A stretch of 64,000 nucleotides of DNA from Natronomonas gomsonensis (GTDB lineage Archaea > Halobacteriota > Halobacteria > Halobacteriales > Haloarculaceae), in NCBI RefSeq assembly GCF_024300825.1, contig NZ_CP101323.1:1550001-1614000 (forward strand), given 5' to 3'. Shown one piece after another: positions 52,662 to 63,736 of the stretch. The notes beneath the pieces are model-generated. The model was not told the DNA's origin. It did no database searches and saw only the letters and a list, made by a program, of their open reading frames with translations. The first letter of the stretch is position 1. Each line of letters opens with the position of its first letter. The position numbers were made by a program, and so were the translations under genes.

Positions 52662-53741
52662 TCACTCCGCCAGACCGCGGAGGTCGACCTCTCCCGGCGG
52701 TTCGAACTCGTAACACAGCGATTCACCGAGTACGTAGTACCGGTGTTTGCCCACGTCCTCGATGACGCGTGCGTCGGTGTCGATGGCGATATCGACGAGG
52801 TCCTCGAGGTTATCGATGCGGACACGCGGTTTGTCGTCGGCGGCGGTCGACACCGCACCCCGGGAAATCCACTGGTCGAACTCCTTCCGTTCGGCGGCAA
52901 ACGACAGGCTTCGGCGTTCGGTGTCGGTCACCTCGAACGCCCCGCGATGCCGACCGACCGCGACACCGGCGAGTCCAACGAGCGAGAGGACGACGAGCAG
53001 CGGGCCGAGGACGCTCCGAACCGGGCCGTAGCTCTGTTCGACCGTCACCGTCTCCGTTCGCGGATGGGGTTCGGTTTTCCCAGAGGGCCCGCTTACGCTG
53101 TAGGTGTCCGAACCGGGGGCGAGCGTGAGCGTGTAGGTGGCTTCGTCCGTAGCCTCGCCCCCCGCCGCGGTGCCGGTGGCCTCGACAGCCGAGACGACGC
53201 TGACCGAAGTCTCACCGGGCGAGGCGCCGAGGTCCTCACGGACGCCCTCGATGTCCGCGAGCACCTCTGTCACGTTGACGGTGAACGATGTCGTCGCCAG
53301 TTCTCCGGGCGCGACCGTCTCGGAGGTCGTTCCGAGCGGTTCCTCGATGCGCCAGAGTTCTTCGGTATTGCCGTCGTCGCCCTCCGACACCGACCGGATG
53401 ACGAGCGTCGTCGTCGTTTCGACCGTCAACTCCCCGTTGGGAGCCTCGAACCCGTATCTGAACTGCCCGTCGAGTTCCGGGCCGAGTTGCGTGTAGTACA
53501 GCGAGCGGTCCTCCAGCGTCTCGCCGACATCGAACACCCTGTTTTCGGTCTGAATCGTCGAGGAGTGAGTGTACCCGCCGACGGAGCGCCACTCGCTTAC
53601 GGTCCGCTGTTCGGTCTCCGTACCCGGTTCGATTTGCGTCGTGTAGGTCAGCGCTCCGCCGACGAGCAGCGCGACGACGAGTGCCGCCGCGATAACCACC
53701 GCGTAGTCGGCGACCACCACCTTCGCCCGTTTCCCCCACAT
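52662..53741 (-). CDS. DUF5305-like exported/membrane protein
   Basis: The 359-residue product has an N-terminal membrane helix (about 11-31) and a large extracellular beta-rich domain. A second helix (about 228-247) and a cytosolic tail of about 105 residues follow. This layout and the ETVTVEQSYGPVRSVLGPLL segment match the archaeal DUF5305 family, which I recall next to signal-peptidase and camelysin-like genes. It lies downstream of the signal peptidase, 60 bp apart, and has its own TATA element (AATAAAAG, reverse strand, 53767-53774). Confidence 0.85.
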   Translation of the reverse strand: MWGKRAKVVVADYAVVIAAALVVALLVGGALTYTTQIEPGTETEQRTVSEWRSVGGYTHSSTIQTENRVFDVGETLEDRSLYYTQLGPELDGQFRYGFEAPNGELTVETTTTLVIRSVSEGDDGNTEELWRIEEPLGTTSETVAPGELATTSFTVNVTEVLADIEGVREDLGASPGETSVSVVSAVEATGTAAGGEATDEATYTLTLAPGSDTYSVSGPSGKTEPHPRTETVTVEQSYGPVRSVLGPLLVVLSLVGLAGVAVGRHRGAFEVTDTERRSLSFAAERKEFDQWISRGAVSTAADDKPRVRIDNLEDLVDIAIDTDARVIEDVGKHRYYVLGESLCYEFEPPGEVDLRGLAE

Positions 53742-53801
53742 TTCGTCCCGGCAAACGCAAGGCCACAATAAAAGGGTTATCACGGCACCATTCGCTGGGC
53801 T

Positions 53802-54932
53802 TCAGAGCCACGACTCCCGTGAACGCGAGCGCGTCCGCACCGGCGAGGCCCCGACCACGAGCAACCCGACGAGGAGGAACGACCCACCCATCAGCAGGCT
53901 CGTGACGAGCGTCGGCAACCACGGATGGACCGCGTACAGCCCCGCGACGACGCCGAAGGGCAACACGGCGAAGTAGCGGTGTTCGGCGACGTACTGCGGG
54001 TAGTAACCGGTCTCCGGCGGCGCCTGTAAGGTGACCGTGACGTTTCGCGATTCACCGCGGTCCATCCGCACCGACGTCGGCTCCACGTCAACGTTGCTGC
54101 TCGCAGGCGAATAGAAGGCGTACACCGGCAGTTGGCCGCCGTTGAGCGCCGGATACGTCAGATTCGAAGTCTCGTCCGTCGGCACCGTCGTCGGGTTCTC
54201 CGAGTCGAACGACGCGCTCACCATGCCGTACTCCTGGGTGTTCGACATCGCGGCCATCGTGCCGCCGCTGACCAACGCGACGAACAGCGCCATCGCGAGC
54301 ACGAGGCGACGGGGGTCATAGATGCCCTTCCGGCGTCGGGTTCGGTTGACGACGCGCTGTCGCCGCTCGTCGTCGAAGAGGAACCCGAAGAGAAGCACTG
54401 CCAACCCACCGCCGGCGATGAGGAGCGCCAGCCCCTGCGTGCCGAGGAACGCCCGCGTGCCGAACGTCTGTGCCAGCGTTCGCTGGACGGAGTCGAGCAT
54501 CCCGCGGGCGGCCTCGGTCAGCAGTCCCAACCCTGGAATCGCGACCACCTCGCCGTTTACTTGCCAGACCTTCGCGACGACCTGTGCGTCGGTGACCGGC
54601 GGCTCTTGGCCGTCCTGATCGGTGAAGGGGTTTGCATCACCGCGGGTGATATACCCCGATTCGGTCTCCCCGACGACGCGGTGGGTCGTCAGTCCGCCGC
54701 CCTGGAGGTTCTGGGCGTTGAAGACGATGACATCGCCCTCCTCGATGTCGCCGGCGACGGGCGAGGGAATCGCGACGAAGCCGTCACCGGGTTCCAGCGT
54801 CGGCTCCATGCTCCCGGTTTCGACGAACCCCAACAGCACGGGCTGGCCGAGTGCGGCCCCCGCGATGAGCGCGACGAGCACCAACACCAACAGCAGTTCC
54901 ACCCCCCGGGTGGCGTAGCCTCGAAGCGACAC
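53802..54932 (-). CDS. Ser-His (ER/SipW-type) signal peptidase with C-terminal extension
   Basis: The 376-residue product starts at GTG. A first helix (about 10-32) leads to the S26 catalytic domain: Ser41 in TGSMEPTLEPGD, His84 in GLTTHRVVG (His instead of bacterial Lys) and Asp99 in GYITRGDAN. This is the Sec11/SipW type. After residue 140 there is an extra module: a helix, an Arg-rich cytosolic loop, another helix near 210-230, an extracellular beta segment and two terminal helices. Its own TATA-like CTTTTCC lies about 28 nt upstream. The neighbouring substrates make it a candidate dedicated peptidase. Confidence 0.9.
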   Translation of the reverse strand: MSLRGYATRGVELLLVLVLVALIAGAALGQPVLLGFVETGSMEPTLEPGDGFVAIPSPVAGDIEEGDVIVFNAQNLQGGGLTTHRVVGETESGYITRGDANPFTDQDGQEPPVTDAQVVAKVWQVNGEVVAIPGLGLLTEAARGMLDSVQRTLAQTFGTRAFLGTQGLALLIAGGGLAVLLFGFLFDDERRQRVVNRTRRRKGIYDPRRLVLAMALFVALVSGGTMAAMSNTQEYGMVSASFDSENPTTVPTDETSNLTYPALNGGQLPVYAFYSPASSNVDVEPTSVRMDRGESRNVTVTLQAPPETGYYPQYVAEHRYFAVLPFGVVAGLYAVHPWLPTLVTSLLMGGSFLLVGLLVVGASPVRTRSRSRESWL

Positions 54933-55030: not shown

Positions 55031-55846
55031 CTAGTCCGTGTATGACGCAGCCTTGTTGGCGTTGATGACGAGATTGCCACTCAGATCTTGGACACCGCTT
55101 GTGTCGGCGTCCGTCGTGTCAACCTGCAGGGAAACGTACACTGCTTCGCCCGAAGGGATCGATTCATCCGGATCGTTCGCCCGGTGGAAACTGAGTGCTT
55201 GGTGTGTCTGGGTCTGTTGGTCGCTCAGGTCGTCGAGGTCAAGCGCCGATGTTCGAACCGCAGTTGCGCCGTCCAGTTCGCTGTCATCCTCGTCCGATCC
55301 GGACCCACTGATGTCCGATGCCGCGCCCTGCAGGTAAATCGTTGCCCCGGGGGATGCCGGCGCTTGATTACCCAGCTGGTACCCAATCTGCAGGTCGATC
55401 GTCATGTCGCTGTTATTGAGCACGATGAACGCCGATTGGTCCTTCTCATCGTCGTACGGCCGCCCTTCCCCTGCAGCCGAGGTGGGATTGGTGTCGTCGT
55501 CGTAAATGCTCTCGAAGTCAATTCCATCCCCACGTGGGTCGTCATCGTCCATCGCACCGACCTGGTACTTCGCCATGTCGTTGACGCCAGTCCTACCCTT
55601 AACACCGTGTGGATTACTCGACTGGAAGTCGATTTCGAGTTCACCGTTTCCATCGGTGCCGACAACCTCACCAGCACCGAGAGCTCCGCCGACCTGCAGC
55701 CCGACGAGCCCATTGCTGTCGCTGACGACCTCCAAGTTCGCGTTCCTGCTGGCCGTGAAGGAGGTAAACGCACCGGTTCCTGTTGCAGCCGCCCCGCCGG
55801 CGGCGAGCGCTCCGAGTCCGATCAACATCTTGCGTCGGTTCACCAT
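55031..55846 (-). CDS. SipW-type exported protein (camelysin/TasA/DUF1102-like) 1
   Basis: The 271-residue product has an N-terminal signal MVNRRKMLIGLGALAAGG ending in ATGTGAFTSFTASRNANLEV, the pattern of SipW-dependent substrates and DUF1102. The mature part is beta-rich and acidic, with an insertion near 150-185, and it ends in VINANKAASYTD. An SD-like AAGGTGA precedes the ATG by 8 nt. It is transcribed towards the signal peptidase gene. Function by analogy: secreted fibre or matrix protein (inference). Confidence 0.87.
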   Translation of the reverse strand: MVNRRKMLIGLGALAAGGAAATGTGAFTSFTASRNANLEVVSDSNGLVGLQVGGALGAGEVVGTDGNGELEIDFQSSNPHGVKGRTGVNDMAKYQVGAMDDDDPRGDGIDFESIYDDDTNPTSAAGEGRPYDDEKDQSAFIVLNNSDMTIDLQIGYQLGNQAPASPGATIYLQGAASDISGSGSDEDDSELDGATAVRTSALDLDDLSDQQTQTHQALSFHRANDPDESIPSGEAVYVSLQVDTTDADTSGVQDLSGNLVINANKAASYTD

Positions 55847-55947: not shown

Positions 55948-56126
55948 AGTCGTTCTGAAGGTTACAAACGAGATGTTACTCCGGTTCGAGTGTGAGACCG
56001 TTGACCGAACAGTTAGCCACTCGTCCGACGGTGATTTTCGCCGGCACAACGGTCGATTACCGAAACACAGGGACCTCAATACTTTATTCCGTGGTATTGT
56101 CTCACGTGGTGGGCAATAGGGGATCT

Positions 56127-56723
56127 ATGTCAGCCACAACATCACGGGGGCACGGGGACGACTCGGGCGGCCCCACTGTCGAGTCAGGGGAACCGACACG
56201 CGACGAGATCTACGAAATTCTGTCGAACCCGCGGCGCAGATACGCGGTTCACTACCTCCAGTTTCACGAGGAACCCGTCGAACTGGGGACGCTCGCCGAA
56301 CAGCTCGCCGCTTGGGAGTGTGACACTACAGTTCGGAACGTAACGTCCACCCAGCGAAAGCGGACCTACACCGCGCTCCAACAGGAGCATCTGCCGAAGA
56401 TGGACCGGGTGGGAATCGTGGAGTTCCAACGGCGAGACGGCGTGGTCAAACCCGCGGAGCCGCTTTCGGATATCGAAATATACACCGAAGTCGTCTCGGG
56501 GTGGAACTTTCCGTGGAGCGACTACTATCTCGGTCTCTCCGCTGTCGCCGCCGCGTTGCTGTCGGCGGCGGCGCTAGATATCGTCCCGTTCGGACTGTTT
56601 CCCGACATCGGCTGGGCAGTGTTCTGCGTCACCGCCTTCGCCGTCTCGGCGCTCGCACACGCCTATATCACTCGGCGCATGAAACTCGGCAAATCACCGA
56701 ATCCACCGGAATTGAGAAGCTAA
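56127..56723 (+). CDS. DUF7344-like winged-helix membrane regulator 1
   Basis: The 198-residue product has a winged-helix domain (DEIYEILSNPRRRYAVHYLQ, then QRKRTYTALQQEHLPKMDRVG). Two C-terminal membrane helices follow (about 130-150 and 155-178). Two closely related paralogues lie at 58017 and 63146. The stop is one base from the ATG of the exported-protein gene 56725, so the pair is an operon. Upstream in-frame GTGs at 56106/56109 could be a leaderless start; the G-rich segment before the ATG also resembles an SD. Confidence 0.85.
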   Translation: MSATTSRGHGDDSGGPTVESGEPTRDEIYEILSNPRRRYAVHYLQFHEEPVELGTLAEQLAAWECDTTVRNVTSTQRKRTYTALQQEHLPKMDRVGIVEFQRRDGVVKPAEPLSDIEIYTEVVSGWNFPWSDYYLGLSAVAAALLSAAALDIVPFGLFPDIGWAVFCVTAFAVSALAHAYITRRMKLGKSPNPPELRS

Positions 56724-56724
56724 C

Positions 56725-57738
56725 ATGAACACTCTCAAAGTCCTCGGCGTTCTCGCGGTCGCCACGTCGGTCGTATTGCTCGCGTCCGGAACCGGGAGTT
56801 TCACCGCCGCCAACGCCGACCGGACGACTGCGCTATCGGTTGCCGACGACGAGTCTGCGCTCGTCGGCTTTGAGGTGTCCTGTGAGGAGAAGACAGTGCG
56901 GCACGGTCCACGCGATAAGGGACCGGATAACCACCTCGTCGACGCGGACCTAGGAGGCAACGAATCCGCAGGGAACGACGACGACGGCGTGGATGCGGAC
57001 ATCTTCTCGGAGAGTTCGGCCGGCAGCGACAACGACCTTGTCGACGCCAACGTCTTTGCGAACGAGTCAGCTGAAAGCGACAACGACCTCGTCGGTGTCG
57101 ATATCGGCTCAAAAGGGATTACAGTCGACAGTTCTCCGAGCGTGTCGACGCGCGCCGAACTCACGGTGACGGTCACCAACCGATTCGCTCGGCCACTGGA
57201 GGGGACGGTCACGGTCGATGGCACCACGAAGGATGTTGGCCCGATTTTACCGGGTAGGACGGACGAAGCCACCTTCGAGGGGTCGTTCGAAGCCGGTGAC
57301 CCGATTACGATTAACGTGACGAAGCCGATTACTGCGACGCTCAACCGAAGCGTCCCGGAGGACTGCAAGCACGCGACCGACGACCCAAAGAAGGGAATCA
57401 GTTTCGTCGCACTCTGTGGCGTGTCGCTCGATGCGGACCTGAACGTCTCCGTCGTCAACTGGGACGGCGGCGACCCCACCGCCATACGCTGGGAGAGCAA
57501 CGGGTCGGTCGAGGTAGTCGTCACGAAAGCCGGGTCAAGGACTGGAACCAGCACTGCATCAGGGCCGGGAATCCAAAACCACCCGGTTGGCGATTCTCTC
57601 AGTGGAATCGTCGACGCCTTCGGGACGGACTCACAGCCCGAACAAACTCCTCAATCGCCATGCCCCGACGGCATCGTCGGCGTGAAGTTCGATTTCAGTG
57701 GGGCGAGCTCCGACGACGGAGAGAAAGTGGGTAGCTAA
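56725..57738 (+). CDS. Divergent exported DUF1102-like protein with acidic repeats
   Basis: The 337-residue product starts with a plain hydrophobic signal (MNTLKVLGVLAVATSVVLLA) and SGTGSFTAANADRTTALSV, a variant of the GxGAFTS pattern without twin Arg. Near residues 70-130 are three imperfect acidic repeats around NESA(G/E)(N/S)D(D/N)D and LVDA. Beta-rich sequence with four or more Cys residues follows (CKHATDD, ALCGV, SPCPDG). It is coupled to the regulator gene upstream. Probably secreted or surface-bound. Confidence 0.8.
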   Translation: MNTLKVLGVLAVATSVVLLASGTGSFTAANADRTTALSVADDESALVGFEVSCEEKTVRHGPRDKGPDNHLVDADLGGNESAGNDDDGVDADIFSESSAGSDNDLVDANVFANESAESDNDLVGVDIGSKGITVDSSPSVSTRAELTVTVTNRFARPLEGTVTVDGTTKDVGPILPGRTDEATFEGSFEAGDPITINVTKPITATLNRSVPEDCKHATDDPKKGISFVALCGVSLDADLNVSVVNWDGGDPTAIRWESNGSVEVVVTKAGSRTGTSTASGPGIQNHPVGDSLSGIVDAFGTDSQPEQTPQSPCPDGIVGVKFDFSGASSDDGEKVGS

Positions 57739-58016
57739 CCGACGCCGAGGGCGACGAACTCGAAACGCGTGACGAGTAGGGTGGTCCGCGGGCGACCGGC
57801 GACACGCCGTGTGGTTTATAAACAAAGGCGATTCACCATCTCAGTTTCTCGCTCCGTGTTGGTAATCAGCGGTTACTAACATCAAGAACATGTAATAGTA
57901 TAGGGGGGAACCACCGGACATCTCTGGTATTTTATTACCTGCCTCTAGAACTATCAAAATCTACTTGTTCGGATATCTCCGTGTTACATACCCACACGGT
58001 TGTGGGGAGGGGAACG

Positions 58017-58607
58017 ATGTACGACAAACTACCAAGAGTGGGACACATCGGTACAGACAGTGGGGGTCGCGAGTTGGCGTGCGACGACATCTTCGACATC
58101 CTCAGCAACGACCGACGACGGTGTATCGTTCATTATCTGAAAAAGCACGACGACCGGCGCGTTGACCTTGGAGAACTCGTCGACTACGTCGCCGCGTGGG
58201 AGACGGATACGCCTATCGATAAACTGGATGGCGACAAACGCAAGAGCGTCTACGCCGCGATTCGACAGACACACCTCCCGAAGATGGAGAAGGCAGGCAT
58301 CATCGAGTACGAACACATGCGTGGGGAAGTAGAGTTGACCGACTGCGCCCGCGAGGTGCAACTGTATCTTGAGTACGTCCCCGGAAACGACATTCCGTGG
58401 AGCGAGCTGTATCTCGGTCAGTCGGCTGTCGCAATCTCGCTCATCGCCGTCGCGTGGACTGGTATCTACCCGTTCGGGCTCCTCTCGGCGTGGTGGCTCG
58501 CTTTGGGTGTTGCAACCGTCTTCACCGTCACTGCAGCGACTCACACCTACCAATCGAGACAACGCCGGCTTGGGACCGGCGAGTACGAAATCGAAACGCC
58601 GGGATAG
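58017..58607 (+). CDS. DUF7344-like winged-helix membrane regulator 2
   Basis: The 196-residue product is closely related to the 63146 protein (SNDRRRCIVHYLKKHDDRR, HLPKMEKAGIIEYEHMRGEVELT) and also to the 56127 protein. The winged helix spans ~25-100, with two helices at ~130-150 and ~155-175. A GGAGG-containing leader precedes the ATG. An in-frame GTG at 57981 is a possible leaderless start. Unlike the other two it is not directly followed by an exported-protein gene on the same strand; the next gene is a convergent rhomboid. Confidence 0.87.
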   Translation: MYDKLPRVGHIGTDSGGRELACDDIFDILSNDRRRCIVHYLKKHDDRRVDLGELVDYVAAWETDTPIDKLDGDKRKSVYAAIRQTHLPKMEKAGIIEYEHMRGEVELTDCAREVQLYLEYVPGNDIPWSELYLGQSAVAISLIAVAWTGIYPFGLLSAWWLALGVATVFTVTAATHTYQSRQRRLGTGEYEIETPG

Positions 58608-58619
58608 GGGCCCGTTCGT

Positions 58620-59471
58620 TCACACCCACGCCTCCGACCCGGGGAGTCGAAGCCCGGCCTCGACGCTCGCGTACGTCGCGACGAACGCCAACGCGTAGCC
58701 GAGCAGGTGCGCGTAGAGGTTGACGACGCTTCCGCCGCCCGTCGGGTCCGTGGGGAAGGCGACGAAGACGAACGCGAGGAACGCGAGCAGTCCGGCGGCG
58801 AACAGCTCGAAGTGGCCGGCCATCCCCGCGGCCGCCCGAACGTTCGAGCGGAGTCGACCCGGGTGCTCAAACGCCGGCAGGGCGTACAGCAGCGCCGACA
58901 GCACCGACGCCGCCGCCAGCCCGTAGGTCACCGGCGACCGAACGCTCAACAGCGCCGACAGCGCCAACCCGACGAAGAAGAAGGCAGGGGCGAGCGAGCG
59001 GCGGGAGCCGATGTCGAACTGCGCGTCGAGGTAATCGGCGAGCGCGATGGGCAGGTAGCCGACGAAGGCCAACAGCACCCCCGAGAAGCCGTAGCCCACG
59101 CTCGGCCGGATAACGGCGAGGTTCAGATACGACAGCGCAATCGGAAACGCCGCGAGGAAGACGGCGAAGGCGACGAAGAACCGCCGCCGGTGGCCGCTCA
59201 GTGTGCTCAACAGATACGCCAGCGGCGCGACGAGCAGGTAGCCGCCCACGTTCACCAGCAGGTGCGCCGAATCGAGGTGGACGAACGCCGACGTGTAGGC
59301 AGTGAGTAGCGAGGGGTCGGTGTAGGCGAAGGTCAGCGACTCCCGAGTCTCAAGCGGGAGCGCAAAAACGGCGACGAGGACAAGCGGGACCGAAAACAGG
59401 AGCGCGAGGTCGCCAGCGCGGACGCTCTTTCGGAGAATTCCGAAAAACGACTTCGCCGTCTCATCGCTCAT
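58620..59471 (-). CDS. Rhomboid-family intramembrane serine protease
   Basis: The 283-residue product has about seven membrane helices. Motifs fit rhomboid: FVHLDSAHLLVN with His70/Asn74 of the oxyanion site, Ser130 in GYGFSG, and His255 in NLYAHLLG. The nucleophile motif is GFSG rather than the common GxSG with Ala/Ser. It sits inside the exported-protein locus, 12 bp from a convergent regulator gene, and might process surface proteins (inference). Catalysis has not been shown for this branch. Confidence 0.83.
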   Translation of the reverse strand: MSDETAKSFFGILRKSVRAGDLALLFSVPLVLVAVFALPLETRESLTFAYTDPSLLTAYTSAFVHLDSAHLLVNVGGYLLVAPLAYLLSTLSGHRRRFFVAFAVFLAAFPIALSYLNLAVIRPSVGYGFSGVLLAFVGYLPIALADYLDAQFDIGSRRSLAPAFFFVGLALSALLSVRSPVTYGLAAASVLSALLYALPAFEHPGRLRSNVRAAAGMAGHFELFAAGLLAFLAFVFVAFPTDPTGGGSVVNLYAHLLGYALAFVATYASVEAGLRLPGSEAWV

Positions 59472-59537: not shown

Positions 59538-60368
59538 TTATTCTCCGCTTCGGCGGCGCCGAGCGAGAGCGAACAGAAGCAGCAGCCCCGCGAGCGCGCT
59601 GAGAAGCCCCAGTAGCGACGATGGGTCGAGGCCTGCTTGCTCTCCGGTCGGGTCGTCGGTGGGCGTCGGCGTGGGTGCGGCCGTCGGTGTCGACGTCCCG
59701 GTTCTGGCTTCCGAGCCTCCGCTCTCGGTTGCGGTGGCCGTTGCCGATGGGGTCTCCGTTTCGGTATCCCCTCCCGAGGGCGTCTTCGTTTCAGGGGTTT
59801 CGGTGTCAGCCGATCCGCCATACCCGAGGGATTCGAACGATCCGTCGTCGGACTCGGTCTCCACTTCGGGGTCGAGGACCGCCATCACGTTAATGGAGTC
59901 GAGCGTGATTTCGTCGGTCTCACGGGTGTCGACGCGCATCGCTATCGTCTCCGAATCGCCGGGCTGTAGCAACACACCGTCGGCTTGGCTCTCGGCTGTT
60001 CCCTCGCCAGGGACGTAGAACTCGACGGCATCGCTTTCGTGTTCGACCCAGACGGTGGCATTGCTCCCCTGTTCGAGAACGTTCTTGACCGTGAATACCG
60101 GACCGATGTTAGTCACGGCATCGTCGTTGACACCACCGGCGTTGAGGTTCGGGTTCTCCTCGGTGAGGATGATTTGGATTTCGCCAGTCTCGTCGTCGAT
60201 TTGGGTGTACGTTCCGTCTCCACCTGCGGGTTCGAGTTCGAGAACGTTGGTCTCATCGTGGGAGACCACGTCAGCACCGCTGGTCGAAACAAGAAACGGA
60301 ATCAACAATAGCGTAAATACTAGGAGAACGCGTCGTAGCGTTATACGACCGGCGAGAGGTTTTTTCAT
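59538..60368 (-). CDS. C-terminally anchored DUF1102-like surface protein
   Basis: The 276-residue product has an N-terminal signal helix (RRVLLVFTLLLIPFLVSTSG). A beta-rich domain of DUF1102 type follows (DETGEIQIILTEENPNLNAGG, VFTVKNVLEQGSNATVWVEH). A Thr/Pro/Glu-rich stalk of about 55 residues leads to a C-terminal helix and RRRRSGE. It lacks the twin-Arg GAFTS signal of its neighbours. The stalk and anchor suggest a cell-bound member, perhaps an anchor for the soluble ones. Confidence 0.83.
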   Translation of the reverse strand: MKKPLAGRITLRRVLLVFTLLLIPFLVSTSGADVVSHDETNVLELEPAGGDGTYTQIDDETGEIQIILTEENPNLNAGGVNDDAVTNIGPVFTVKNVLEQGSNATVWVEHESDAVEFYVPGEGTAESQADGVLLQPGDSETIAMRVDTRETDEITLDSINVMAVLDPEVETESDDGSFESLGYGGSADTETPETKTPSGGDTETETPSATATATESGGSEARTGTSTPTAAPTPTPTDDPTGEQAGLDPSSLLGLLSALAGLLLLFALARRRRSGE

Positions 60369-60402: not shown

Positions 60403-61725
60403 TCAGGCGATATCGGTGAACGTTTCGGTAGTTTCGTCCAACTGGGATGCTCCGCCGTCAAGTTCGATTTCGAACCAAGCACCGCTGTTGGCATCGTGTC
60501 CGTACAGCACCTTTCCGTCGTCTCCGACACCGAAGGCAATCTGTTTGCCAACCGCTTCACCCGATGTGGTGATGGTCTCTACGTCGTCACTGTTGACATC
60601 GTCGGTGTTCTCGGAGAGTACGACTTTGAAGAACTCCGAGCTCGAACTACCATACAGTACACTGTTTTCGTGGTCGATAGCGAGGTCACCGAGCGTCATG
60701 TTCGAGCCAACATCGACGACATCGTTGACGCTTCCGACGCTTCCATCGCTCTCGTCAATCTCGGCCCGTTTCAGCTTGCTGGTACCTTGGGGGATAAAGT
60801 AGTAGTTACCGTCGTCCCATGTCGCACCGGCAAGGTCATTTCCATCGGCAATTTGCTGGAGTTCAGTCACGCTTCCATCGTAGAGATGAAGCACACCGTC
60901 CCCATCATCGGTCGTGTCACCGTAGTACCAACGCTCGTTTTCGGGGTCGTATGCAAGCCCGTTCGGGAAGTTCTGCTGGCCGAAGTCATCGAAGTCGATT
61001 ATTTCGGAGTCGACAGAGGGGTTCGGAACGGTAATCGACTTCAGTTCGCCCGCACCGTTACCTCGAGTGACCCCCCACAGTGTATCAGGAGTTGGCTCTG
61101 ATGACCCCTCACTACCCTCGACAGGACACTCGCCGGCCATCGCGTTGATGACCATCTCGTGGTCGCTGTCGCCGAGTTTCTTCATGAGGTTGTTCACCCC
61201 ATCCTCGTTCGTGAAGTCAGAGCCGAGCCCGCGCGTGTCGATGTCCAAGCTCACACAGACGGAGTCACCGACATCGAGGCAGACCCGATTATCGTAGCCG
61301 ATTATCTTCGCGTTCTCGTTCTCGTCGAGTTCCTGTTCGTGGAGATAAAATTCGACTCGGTCCTCGCCGTCGTCCTCGACTGGGTCGACATCAATCCAGA
61401 CGGCTGCTTCCTGTGTTCCCTGGTTTTTGATTTGGAACACGTCACGGATGACGGTGAGTGCGTCGGGATTAACTCCCTCGCCGAGGATGTTTTCGTTCGA
61501 GTCCGACAGGTCAATGGCCATCGTGCCATTGTCTCGAATCCGGGCGTACTGCCCATTCGGGCTACCGTTACAGCCGTCAAGGCCGAGTAGTGCATCTGGG
61601 TCGTCGACGACCGCAACGGCAACAGTTCGATTAGCTTGAACACTCGTAAATGCGCCTGAGCCAACGAGTGCACCGCTGCCCGCCGCGAGTCCGCCCATCC
61701 CCATCAGTATGTTACGTCGTTTCAT
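60403..61725 (-). CDS. DUF1102-type exported protein fused to a beta-propeller-like domain
   Basis: The 440-residue product has the SipW-type signal MKRRNILMGMGGLAAGSG and GSGAFTSVQANRTVAV. It continues through a DUF1102 domain (ALLGLDGCNG, FQIKNQGTQEAAVWIDV, CVSLDIDTRG) to about residue 190. The second half (about 205-440) has short repeats such as NGLAYDPENERWYYGDT and LAIDHENSVLYGSS, like a small beta-propeller. The gene has lower GC than the window average. It is 34 bp from the anchored gene on the same strand. Confidence 0.85.
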   Translation of the reverse strand: MKRRNILMGMGGLAAGSGALVGSGAFTSVQANRTVAVAVVDDPDALLGLDGCNGSPNGQYARIRDNGTMAIDLSDSNENILGEGVNPDALTVIRDVFQIKNQGTQEAAVWIDVDPVEDDGEDRVEFYLHEQELDENENAKIIGYDNRVCLDVGDSVCVSLDIDTRGLGSDFTNEDGVNNLMKKLGDSDHEMVINAMAGECPVEGSEGSSEPTPDTLWGVTRGNGAGELKSITVPNPSVDSEIIDFDDFGQQNFPNGLAYDPENERWYYGDTTDDGDGVLHLYDGSVTELQQIADGNDLAGATWDDGNYYFIPQGTSKLKRAEIDESDGSVGSVNDVVDVGSNMTLGDLAIDHENSVLYGSSSSEFFKVVLSENTDDVNSDDVETITTSGEAVGKQIAFGVGDDGKVLYGHDANSGAWFEIELDGGASQLDETTETFTDIA

Positions 61726-61830: not shown

Positions 61831-62511
61831 TCAGATCATTGTAGTGTCAGCAGCCAGCGTGAGCTTAACATCACCAAACGAAGCATCGGTATCGTCAGCA
61901 CTTTCATCAACTACTAGACCGAAGCTGAACGAATCACCTGGAAGAAGCTTGAAATTATTTAAGCTGCCGTAGATGCTCGTCGCTGCTTCTTCCCAAGAAG
62001 TAGAATCACCGTCATAATATTCACCGAAAATAGCGGTCAAGCTGACTTCGTCTTCGATTTGATTGTTATTAGAAAAGCTTCCGTATGGTCGATTAGTTGC
62101 CTGCGGGTCAATATAGTCGTTAGTCTGGATGGTACCGTTAATTCCGCTCAAGACTTGTGTTCCGCCGATAGTGACACTAGTCGGAGGAACGTACACAATA
62201 GCTCCTTCAGTGCCCTGGTTTTTGACCTCGAATAGCTCGTGGACCTTCGTCTTAGCATCCTGATTAATTCCCTGACCACCTTCACCACTATTGTCGAGAG
62301 TTACTGAAACTTCACCGGAGTCAGATTTGTCCGCGAACACACTATTTTTTCCAGTTGTGGGATCAAGCGCCAAGTATGCATTATTATCGTCCGCAACGTT
62401 CACAGACACAGTACGCTCGGCACTCACACTCGTAAACGCGCCCGAGCCGACGAGCGCACTCGCACCCACTGCTGCACTACCCGCACCGATCAAGAATTTG
62501 CGTCGTTCCAT
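61831..62511 (-). CDS. SipW-type exported protein (DUF1102) with low GC
   Basis: The 226-residue product has the signal MERRKFLIGAGSAAVGASA then GSGAFTSVSAERTVSVNV, and a beta-rich DUF1102 mature part (ELFEVKNQGTEGAIVYV, FSFGLVVDES). Base composition is markedly lower than around it: 26 of 60 bases at 61921-61980 are G or C. An SD-like AAGGTGA precedes the ATG by 7 nt. It shares its leader with the 55846 gene. Confidence 0.87.
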   Translation of the reverse strand: MERRKFLIGAGSAAVGASALVGSGAFTSVSAERTVSVNVADDNNAYLALDPTTGKNSVFADKSDSGEVSVTLDNSGEGGQGINQDAKTKVHELFEVKNQGTEGAIVYVPPTSVTIGGTQVLSGINGTIQTNDYIDPQATNRPYGSFSNNNQIEDEVSLTAIFGEYYDGDSTSWEEAATSIYGSLNNFKLLPGDSFSFGLVVDESADDTDASFGDVKLTLAADTTMI

Positions 62512-63145: not shown

Positions 63146-63736
63146 ATGAGTCTGAAAGGAACCACAATCTCCGATTCGGTGTCGCCCTCTGAGAACGGTT
63201 CGTCGCTACCGCGCGACGAGGTCTTCGAGGTACTCAGTAACGCCCGGCGCCGCTGTGCGCTGCAGTATCTGAAACAACAGGACGACCGACGGGTCGAGCT
63301 ACGCGAGCTCGTCGACCACGTCACCGCGTGGGAAAACGACACCACGACGGCCGAAATCGACAGCGCCGAGCGTAAACGCGTCTACACCGCGCTGCGGCAG
63401 AATCACCTGCCGAAGCTCGACGACGCCGGTATCATCGAGTACGAACACATGCGCGGGGAAGTGGAGTTGACCGAGGATGCACGCGAAGTCCAGATGTATC
63501 TGGAGTTCGTCCCGCACAACGACATCCCGTGGAGCGAGTACTATCTCGGCCTGTCGGCGGTGGGGGCGGCGCTCGTCGCCGCCGTGTGGGTGGGGGTGTA
63601 CCCCTTCGGTGAACTGTCCGGTCTTGGACTCTCTGTGATTCTCATCGCGCTGTTCGCCGTTTCTGCTGCGGTTCACACCTACGACGCCGCACGGAACCGT
63701 ATCGGCTCCGAGAAATACGAGGTGTGTGACGAATGA
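63146..63736 (+). CDS. DUF7344-like winged-helix membrane regulator 3
   Basis: The 196-residue product has a winged helix (DEVFEVLSNARRRCALQYLK, RKRVYTALRQNHLPKLDDAG) and two terminal helices. It is close to the 58017 protein: both share IIEYEHMRGEVELT. Its stop overlaps the ATG of the following exported-protein gene (ATGA), so the two are co-translated. A G-rich leader (GGTGGGGGAAC) precedes the ATG. Confidence 0.88.
   Translation: MSLKGTTISDSVSPSENGSSLPRDEVFEVLSNARRRCALQYLKQQDDRRVELRELVDHVTAWENDTTTAEIDSAERKRVYTALRQNHLPKLDDAGIIEYEHMRGEVELTEDAREVQMYLEFVPHNDIPWSEYYLGLSAVGAALVAAVWVGVYPFGELSGLGLSVILIALFAVSAAVHTYDAARNRIGSEKYEVCDE

Follow-up and report, generated by a model that had tools for sequence, protein, structure and literature searches.

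The 64,000-nucleotide stretch of DNA analysed here (the window) encodes an S26-type archaeal signal peptidase with predicted cleavage activity, in which the catalytic half is followed by a C-terminal module of ~240 residues comprising membrane helices and a putative extracellular beta-sandwich. This extended peptidase is very probably dedicated to a donor-strand-type (Tafi-type) pilus, since extended genes are linked to DUF5305 and TafE genes and the linked subunits are kin to the Tafi pilin. On balance we favor a reading in which the dedicated enzyme carries its module on the outer side of the membrane, where it would receive newly cut subunits for assembly. The locus type itself is already known (Tafi; NCBIfam TafA, C, E and F; a solved pilus), and some of the genes annotated simply as 'signal peptidase I' belong to a separate class tied to pili.

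The extended signal peptidase and its C-terminal module

The peptidase gene product scores 25.7 bits with Pfam Peptidase_S26 (PF10502; cut-off 22.9). Its residues 12–134 are covered by the NCBIfam family for archaeal signal peptidase I, TIGR02228 (64.1 bits versus a cut-off of 51.85). The features of the gene are as follows.

53802..54932, minus strand: extended signal peptidase I (376 aa, GTG start)
54852..54926, minus strand: N-terminal membrane helix, residues 3–27 (AlphaFold2 model and hydropathy)
54531..54845, minus strand: S26 catalytic domain, residues 30–134 (family matches, model and conservation)
54810–54812, 54681–54683 and 54636–54638, minus strand: codons for Ser41, His84 and Asp99, respectively
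54375..54443, minus strand: second membrane helix, residues 164–186 (model and hydropathy)
54315..54374, minus strand: Arg-rich loop, residues 187–206, presumably cytosolic (model)
54246..54314, minus strand: third membrane helix, residues 207–229 (model and hydropathy)
53967..54242, minus strand: predicted extracellular beta-sandwich, residues 231–322, resembling ASH/MSP/PapD domains (AlphaFold2, Foldseek, VIA-align and Pfam)
53853..53957, minus strand: short helix and last membrane helix, residues 326–360 (model and hydropathy)

Ser41, His84 and Asp99, the catalytic residues by analogy with Sec11, are invariant in all 81 aligned sequences, the window protein included, confirming the complete catalytic set reported in the first-pass annotation. 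For the S26 half, VIA-align puts Streptococcus pyogenes SipA first (4n31; Z 11.0), in a tie that also takes in SEC11C (Z 10.3) and the E. coli signal peptidase (Z 10.2); Foldseek returns the SEC11-like 7p2q at E 2.0e-4, and both SEC11A and SEC11C are matched.

An AlphaFold2 model built on the 81-sequence alignment (mean pLDDT 83) has a membrane helix at residues 3–27, the S26 fold to ~134, a helix at 135–157 and a membrane helix at 164–186, followed beyond the Arg-rich loop by a membrane helix at 207–229, the beta-sandwich at 231–321, a short helix at 326–335 and a membrane helix at 339–360. The third membrane helix continues directly into the first beta strand. The beta-sandwich blocks are modeled at pLDDT 92–98 and the Arg-rich loop is disordered (pLDDT < 50 at residues 188–203), and with a pTM of 0.54 the position of the module relative to the active site is unsure. 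Taking the N-terminus as inside, the beta-sandwich and the active site would lie on the same outer face of the membrane. A reading of the third helix and first strand as a captured SipW-type signal was considered and rejected: TIGR04088 matches the window protein at E 0.047, but just one of the 81 members matches it.

The 80 named relatives in this alignment are the best 80 of 299 and are hence biased toward close ones; they bear haloarchaeal titles, bar a few such as 'uncultured archaeon A07HR67'. They span 354–406 aa, using starts chosen in this analysis, and the segment aligned to residues 229–323 is 94–97 residues long in all 80 (95 in all but three); these lengths argue that the extension is beyond chance. 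The best-conserved strands are 231–240, 309–321 and the three-residue 249–251 (mean top-residue frequency 0.77–0.78), the first two of which each adjoin membrane helices, and conservation is lowest in the Arg-rich loop, the C-tail excepted. The extension is thus supported as a genuine added module: the helices and Arg-rich loop described at first reading recur in the AlphaFold2 model, whereas the beta segment, put there at ~70 residues, comprises ~92.

The pilus locus in the window

The peptidase gene lies among the following genes.

52662..53783, minus strand: DUF5305 protein, the next gene downstream and a near-constant partner (PF17231 E 3.9e-59; alternative ATG start at 53741)
55031..55846, minus strand: TafE-like subunit with an RR-containing signal, encoded immediately before the peptidase gene on its upstream side (NF052522 E 1.9e-11, 44 bits, cut-off 155)
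55992..56723, plus strand: DUF7344 regulator-like protein (PF24035 E 9.1e-29)
56725..57738, plus strand: TafC-like subunit, signal lacking RR (NF052521 E 2.2e-5, below cut-off)
57981..58607, plus strand: DUF7344 regulator-like protein (PF24035 E 2.2e-27)
58620..59471, minus strand: rhomboid-type protease, paired with the anchored TafF (PF01694 E 0.016 and TIGR03902 E 0.0014, both below cut-off)
59538..60368, minus strand: TafF-like protein whose C-terminus has a hydrophobic stretch and an Arg tail (NF052523 E 5.3e-9, below cut-off)
60403..61725, minus strand: TafE/DUF1102 subunit (PF06510 E 6e-10; NF052522 E 2.1e-22, 79.7 bits, cut-off 155)
61831..62511, minus strand: TafE-like pilin, modeled, a relative of Tafi pilin 9p0a_C (profile and VIA-align)
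63146–63736, plus strand: third DUF7344-like gene (own profile)

All of the Taf subunits in the window fall below the NCBIfam TafA/C/E/F equivalog cut-offs, the best being the TafE match of 60403–61725. The three DUF7344-like genes are interspersed with the pilus genes, and two of them have a same-strand Taf-like gene next. The rhomboid and peptidase genes, which adjoin at many other loci, are here separated by a plus-strand unit and a Taf gene. The putative rhomboid (58620–59471) has visible GFSG and AHLLG sequences, and a rhomboid and an anchored Taf-like protein (with an Arg tail and often GG/AG-F before the anchor) occur as a pair in the named loci: among 67 loci with at least 4 kb upstream, 32 have both, 28 neither, five the anchored protein alone and two the rhomboid alone (Fisher p 1.4e-11). 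The pair looks like an archaeal rhombosortase/GlyGly-CTERM-type sorting pair.

The linked subunits are related to the Tafi pilin

A 38-sequence Taf profile matches chain C of PDB 9P0A (9p0a_C, 'Pilin') at E 1.5e-31, the entry being entitled 'Structure of Natrinema sp. J7-2 Tafi pilus', and the single window protein 61831–62511 matches the same chain at E 9.2e-12 across residues 1–130, a stretch that takes in the signal. A model of this Taf subunit (mean pLDDT 75) gives the 9p0a pilin as the top VIA-align match (Z 8.6, rmsd 3.1, 133 residues aligned), followed by bundling pili of Pyrobaculum calidifontis (8.1), the 0406 filament of S. acidocaldarius (7.6), FimA (6.5) and TasA (4.6). Foldseek of the same model against the PDB yields nothing at E ≤ 0.001, with 9p0a at 0.025, so that it is the sequence profile and VIA-align that identify the Taf protein. 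Of the 38 Taf alignment members, 15 match DUF1102, and the linked 'DUF1102' proteins of the first-pass annotation are by these comparisons relatives of the solved Tafi pilin.

A G-x-G-A-F-type motif is present in 142 of the 235 Taf-like ORFs at the named loci. Outside the letters searched for, 129 of these 142 have Arg at +7 and 115 have Ala at +5, and such a shared site would fit processing by one dedicated peptidase. The signals of 134 of the 142 motif-bearing haloarchaeal ORFs contain RR or RK.

Linkage of the extended peptidase to DUF5305 and Taf genes

A protein search over 60 genomes (that of the window and its relatives) matched 43, some in the peptidase half only, and we counted 58 extended genes in 40 of the 60. 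In 53 of them the match reaches the extension (one of these is truncated where its contig ends). The remaining five are shorter and divergent, and four of the five show both halves by profile; the fifth (G049 contig C224, locus L154, 264 aa) matches in the peptidase half only and is still counted. Left out is a gene in genome G044 (L118; 5173–6054 and 6992–7408, plus strand), an extended peptidase broken across two frames, next to a DUF5305 gene; the same genome also carries a full-length copy.

At least 56 of the 58 extended genes have a DUF5305 or TafE match within 10 kb, and taken separately DUF5305 is within this distance of 49 and TafE of at least 48. The two with no partner within 10 kb are in G047, on a 3.6-kb contig, and G059. 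As a control, 150 S26 family search rows from the 60 phylogeny-near genomes gave 92 non-extended rows that were merged into 89 genes, one of which has DUF5305 within 10 kb (Fisher p 1.6e-28 for 49/58 versus 1/89). At the genome level the extended peptidase is present in 40, DUF5305 in 40 and TafE in at least 39 of the 60, and DUF5305 is found in 39 of the 40 genomes with an extended peptidase. Of the 76 named loci with enough sequence, 68 have it immediately after the peptidase gene in the same orientation, four have it elsewhere or on the opposite strand, and four do not show it in the available DNA. At least one Taf-like gene is present at all 67 named loci with 4 kb or more upstream, 'Taf-like' being a broad label, as the profiles were built up iteratively from those very ORFs and coalesced into a single broad group. 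Linkage to the presumed substrates is accordingly very strong. The first-pass annotation had named, as grounds for refutation, an extension shared by general haloarchaeal signal peptidases and lacking linked substrates; at least 56 of 58 extended genes near DUF5305 or TafE, against one of 89 other S26 genes near DUF5305, does not refute it.

Plasmids carry the extended peptidase as well: in Haloferax larsenii (L167) the gene is ~4.6 kb from a DUF5305 gene and in Natrialba magadii (L168) it adjoins one.

Distribution and phylogeny

The module is common in haloarchaea yet is no feature of general signal peptidases. The other non-extended S26 genes examined match the family profile in the peptidase half and, in some, in short helix stretches, none of them over the beta-domain, and the housekeeping-type S26 enzyme of the same genome (L149) has a profile match in the peptidase half only. 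Another S26 gene of this genome (L135; 1390–2346, plus strand) bears a C-terminal extension of another kind, which contains hydrophobic helices and has no match to the beta-domain; the gene matches DUF7937 at E 7e-5, below cut-off.

Across the phylum, the beta-domain profile matched 22 of 148 sampled genomes, the matches in G025 and G126, which lie in very long frames, being left aside. Five of these matches (L161–L165), from one family outside the order, are signal peptidases of 327–352 aa with both halves, whereas L166 (G180) matches the profile but is a repeat protein with no peptidase. The five loci have the same peptidase architecture and operon as the haloarchaeal ones, with DUF5305 identified by profile in four and a look-alike by eye in the fifth, and at least two also have regulators resembling DUF7344 by eye. 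None of 19 Taf-like ORFs checked beside these peptidases has RR within its first 30 residues, and the lack of RR in these operon subunits suggests that the Tat signal is perhaps a later haloarchaeal change.

A tree of the peptidase half (55 rows) has unsettled bootstrap values, long end branches and poor inner support. A 99/91 branch sets apart fourteen other S26 rows and three housekeeping rows as one of its sides, and a single origin of the extended type may therefore be compatible with the tree; the main extended rows (2 changes) do not form a single clade, and nor does the shorter variant (3 changes).

A possible PapD-like resemblance of the beta-sandwich

The beta-sandwich resembles the ASH/MSP/PapD superfamily, in its modeled structure at middling scores and in sequence weakly; the PapD-like resemblance is new in this analysis. 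Foldseek matches, assigned to the beta-domain through VIA-align placement, are at E 4e-4 to 1e-3 to MSP/VAP chains and PapD-like chains of CEP192, and more weakly to the pilus chaperones Caf1M, CupB2 and YadV (E ~1e-2), at which level unrelated folds (the Ena2A fibre, a cupin and VP28) are also returned. VIA-align gives a ciliary central-pair chain (FAP81; Z 8.2), VAP-A (8.1), Caf1M (7.3), PapD (7.1) and an entry for FimC (7.0); these scores are tied or nearly so, and Z values of 7–8 are middling and perhaps reflect a common arrangement. Since ASH/MSP folds turn up among the matches of the Taf model too (Z ~5.6), the resemblance of the beta-domain is partly generic.

In Pfam searches of 61 domain segments, Cep192_D3 matches 13 (best 4.1e-6), ASH four, HYDIN four and DUF1573 two at E ≤ 0.1, rising at E ≤ 1 to 20, seven, four and four, respectively. 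These four families, members of the PapD-like clan, match none of 38 Taf and none of 67 DUF5305 proteins used as controls at E ≤ 0.1. Other Ig-like families matched at E ≤ 0.1 are fn3_5 (10/61), Ig_VWA7 (7/61), N_BRCA1_IG (6/61) and MalQ_N (5/61), and the beta-domain of the window protein itself has no Pfam match to Cep192 or ASH. A domain-only profile against PDB sequences returned designed armadillo repeats and other weak matches, and sequence alone therefore gives no domain identity. The peptidase contains one Ig-like beta-domain (residues 231–322), whereas pilus chaperones have two. ASH and MSP domains mostly have other jobs.

Proposed role and alternative explanations

An assembly role for the module is probable, and the suggestion of the first-pass annotation that the extra part could capture or pass on substrates is plausible because the beta-domain resembles PapD-like folds. 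The S26 half would remove the signal peptides of Taf subunits, its presumed substrates, as the translocase releases them, and the fused module, likewise placed outside the membrane, would take the newly cut subunits, acting after cleavage. We hypothesize a PapD-like holding role, in which the sandwich would bind subunits through strand pairing, transiently completing or shielding the open subunit groove, and would then hand the subunit to the growing pilus, perhaps aided by DUF5305 as the near-constant partner. In the fullest version of this scheme, which we offer tentatively, the peptidase brings its own chaperone: once the S26 half has cleaved the pilin, the tethered PapD-like domain would take hold of it through strand complementation and deliver it to the pilus.

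The main rival is a scaffold in cis, with the module serving as a peptidase accessory like SPC22/23 or SPC25 that shapes or positions the active site and does not hold cut subunits. In the eukaryotic complex SEC11 is accompanied by a subunit that has one TM helix and a beta domain in the lumen, the S26 half here is SEC11-like by both Foldseek and VIA-align, and fusion in a single chain suits a structural role. However, other haloarchaeal S26 genes do without the module and the extended type is bound to pilus loci; the fold matches listed for the beta-domain come from MSP and ciliary proteins and from chaperones. SPC22/23 is not among the matches listed from Foldseek, VIA-align or the domain profile against PDB sequences, which does not count against kinship with it. 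We consider a scaffold unlikely, if worth keeping in view. The constancy of DUF5305, the tightest partner both among genomes and in gene order and one that extends to the loci outside the order, also brings up a module with the sole job of binding this protein, DUF5305 itself being the true assembly platform. The eight named loci at which it is displaced or not seen in the available DNA speak against such a dock, to which we give little weight.

Recruitment of the peptidase by the added helices and Arg-rich loop to the Tat translocase exporting Taf subunits would suit the RR or RK of nearly all motif-bearing haloarchaeal signals, but is disfavored because L161–L165 keep the module and operon although none of the 19 Taf-like ORFs checked there has RR near its start; in addition, only the C-tail is less conserved than the Arg-rich loop, and we judge this role very improbable. 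From the same five loci, the module most likely acts after export. Plasmid-borne relatives are annotated just as 'signal peptidase I', as an ordinary housekeeping enzyme carrying neutral extra length would be, yet the beta-domain length is held constant across the 80 relatives, and the gene is linked to and co-occurs with DUF5305 and TafE. The linkage control, the separate L149 gene and the rough tree, with its 17 other S26 rows on one side of the 99/91 branch, effectively rule out the general-peptidase reading.

If the fullest version, a peptidase with its own chaperone, is correct, archaeal donor-strand pili would have an assembly chaperone, shared by at least two lineages, with RR-signal and non-RR subunits, respectively. 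The groove of TasA needs filling by a strand (PMC9674648), TapA acts as the donor-strand filler in Bacillus, like a chaperone of the chaperone-usher type, and is not conserved even within Bacillus (PMC10151520), and no protein of the archaeal thread gene cluster is assignable as a chaperone or usher (PMC9715654). For archaeal donor-strand pilus assembly the beta-sandwich is a named, deletable candidate of 92 residues that is pilus-linked in two lineages. Our literature search found no paper naming DUF1102, DUF5305 or their Pfam numbers, and an earlier description of the peptidase extension, for example in the Tafi papers, is possible.

Comparison with known systems

The closest known system is the Tafi (Tat-fimbriae) cluster of haloarchaea, to the pilin of which the window subunits are kin by profile and structure; the match to NCBIfam TafA, TafC, TafE and TafF is weak. 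The general signal peptidase of the same genome (L149) shares the S26 core and has an N-terminal extension, but lacks the C-terminal beta module, as do the general signal peptidases Sec11a and Sec11b of Haloferax, which share the same core. In the eukaryotic signal peptidase complex SEC11A and SEC11C match the S26 half, whereas here an extra beta-domain is in the same chain. S. pyogenes SipA, the top match of the S26 half, is linked to pili by its entry title ('essential for pilus polymerisation'); it has no sign of the module, and the kinship is through the S26 fold alone.

PapD, FimC and Caf1M of the chaperone-usher systems resemble the beta-domain in fold at middling scores (Z 7.0–7.3), and the Taf model resembles FimA (Z 6.5). 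The peptidase module differs from these chaperones in having one domain rather than two, in being tethered between membrane helices and in being fused to a peptidase. Haloarchaea are not known to have an outer membrane.

Bacillus SipW likewise is a dedicated S26 peptidase encoded alongside donor-strand fibre subunits, TasA and TapA, of which TasA is a weak match to the Taf model. The SipW model NF046067 matches all 81 members at E ≤ 1, the window protein scoring 36.1 bits against a cut-off of 190. This model has 189 positions only, and SipW therefore has no comparable module. In Bacillus the strand is donated by a separate protein, TapA (PMC10151520), whereas the module described here is fused to the peptidase.
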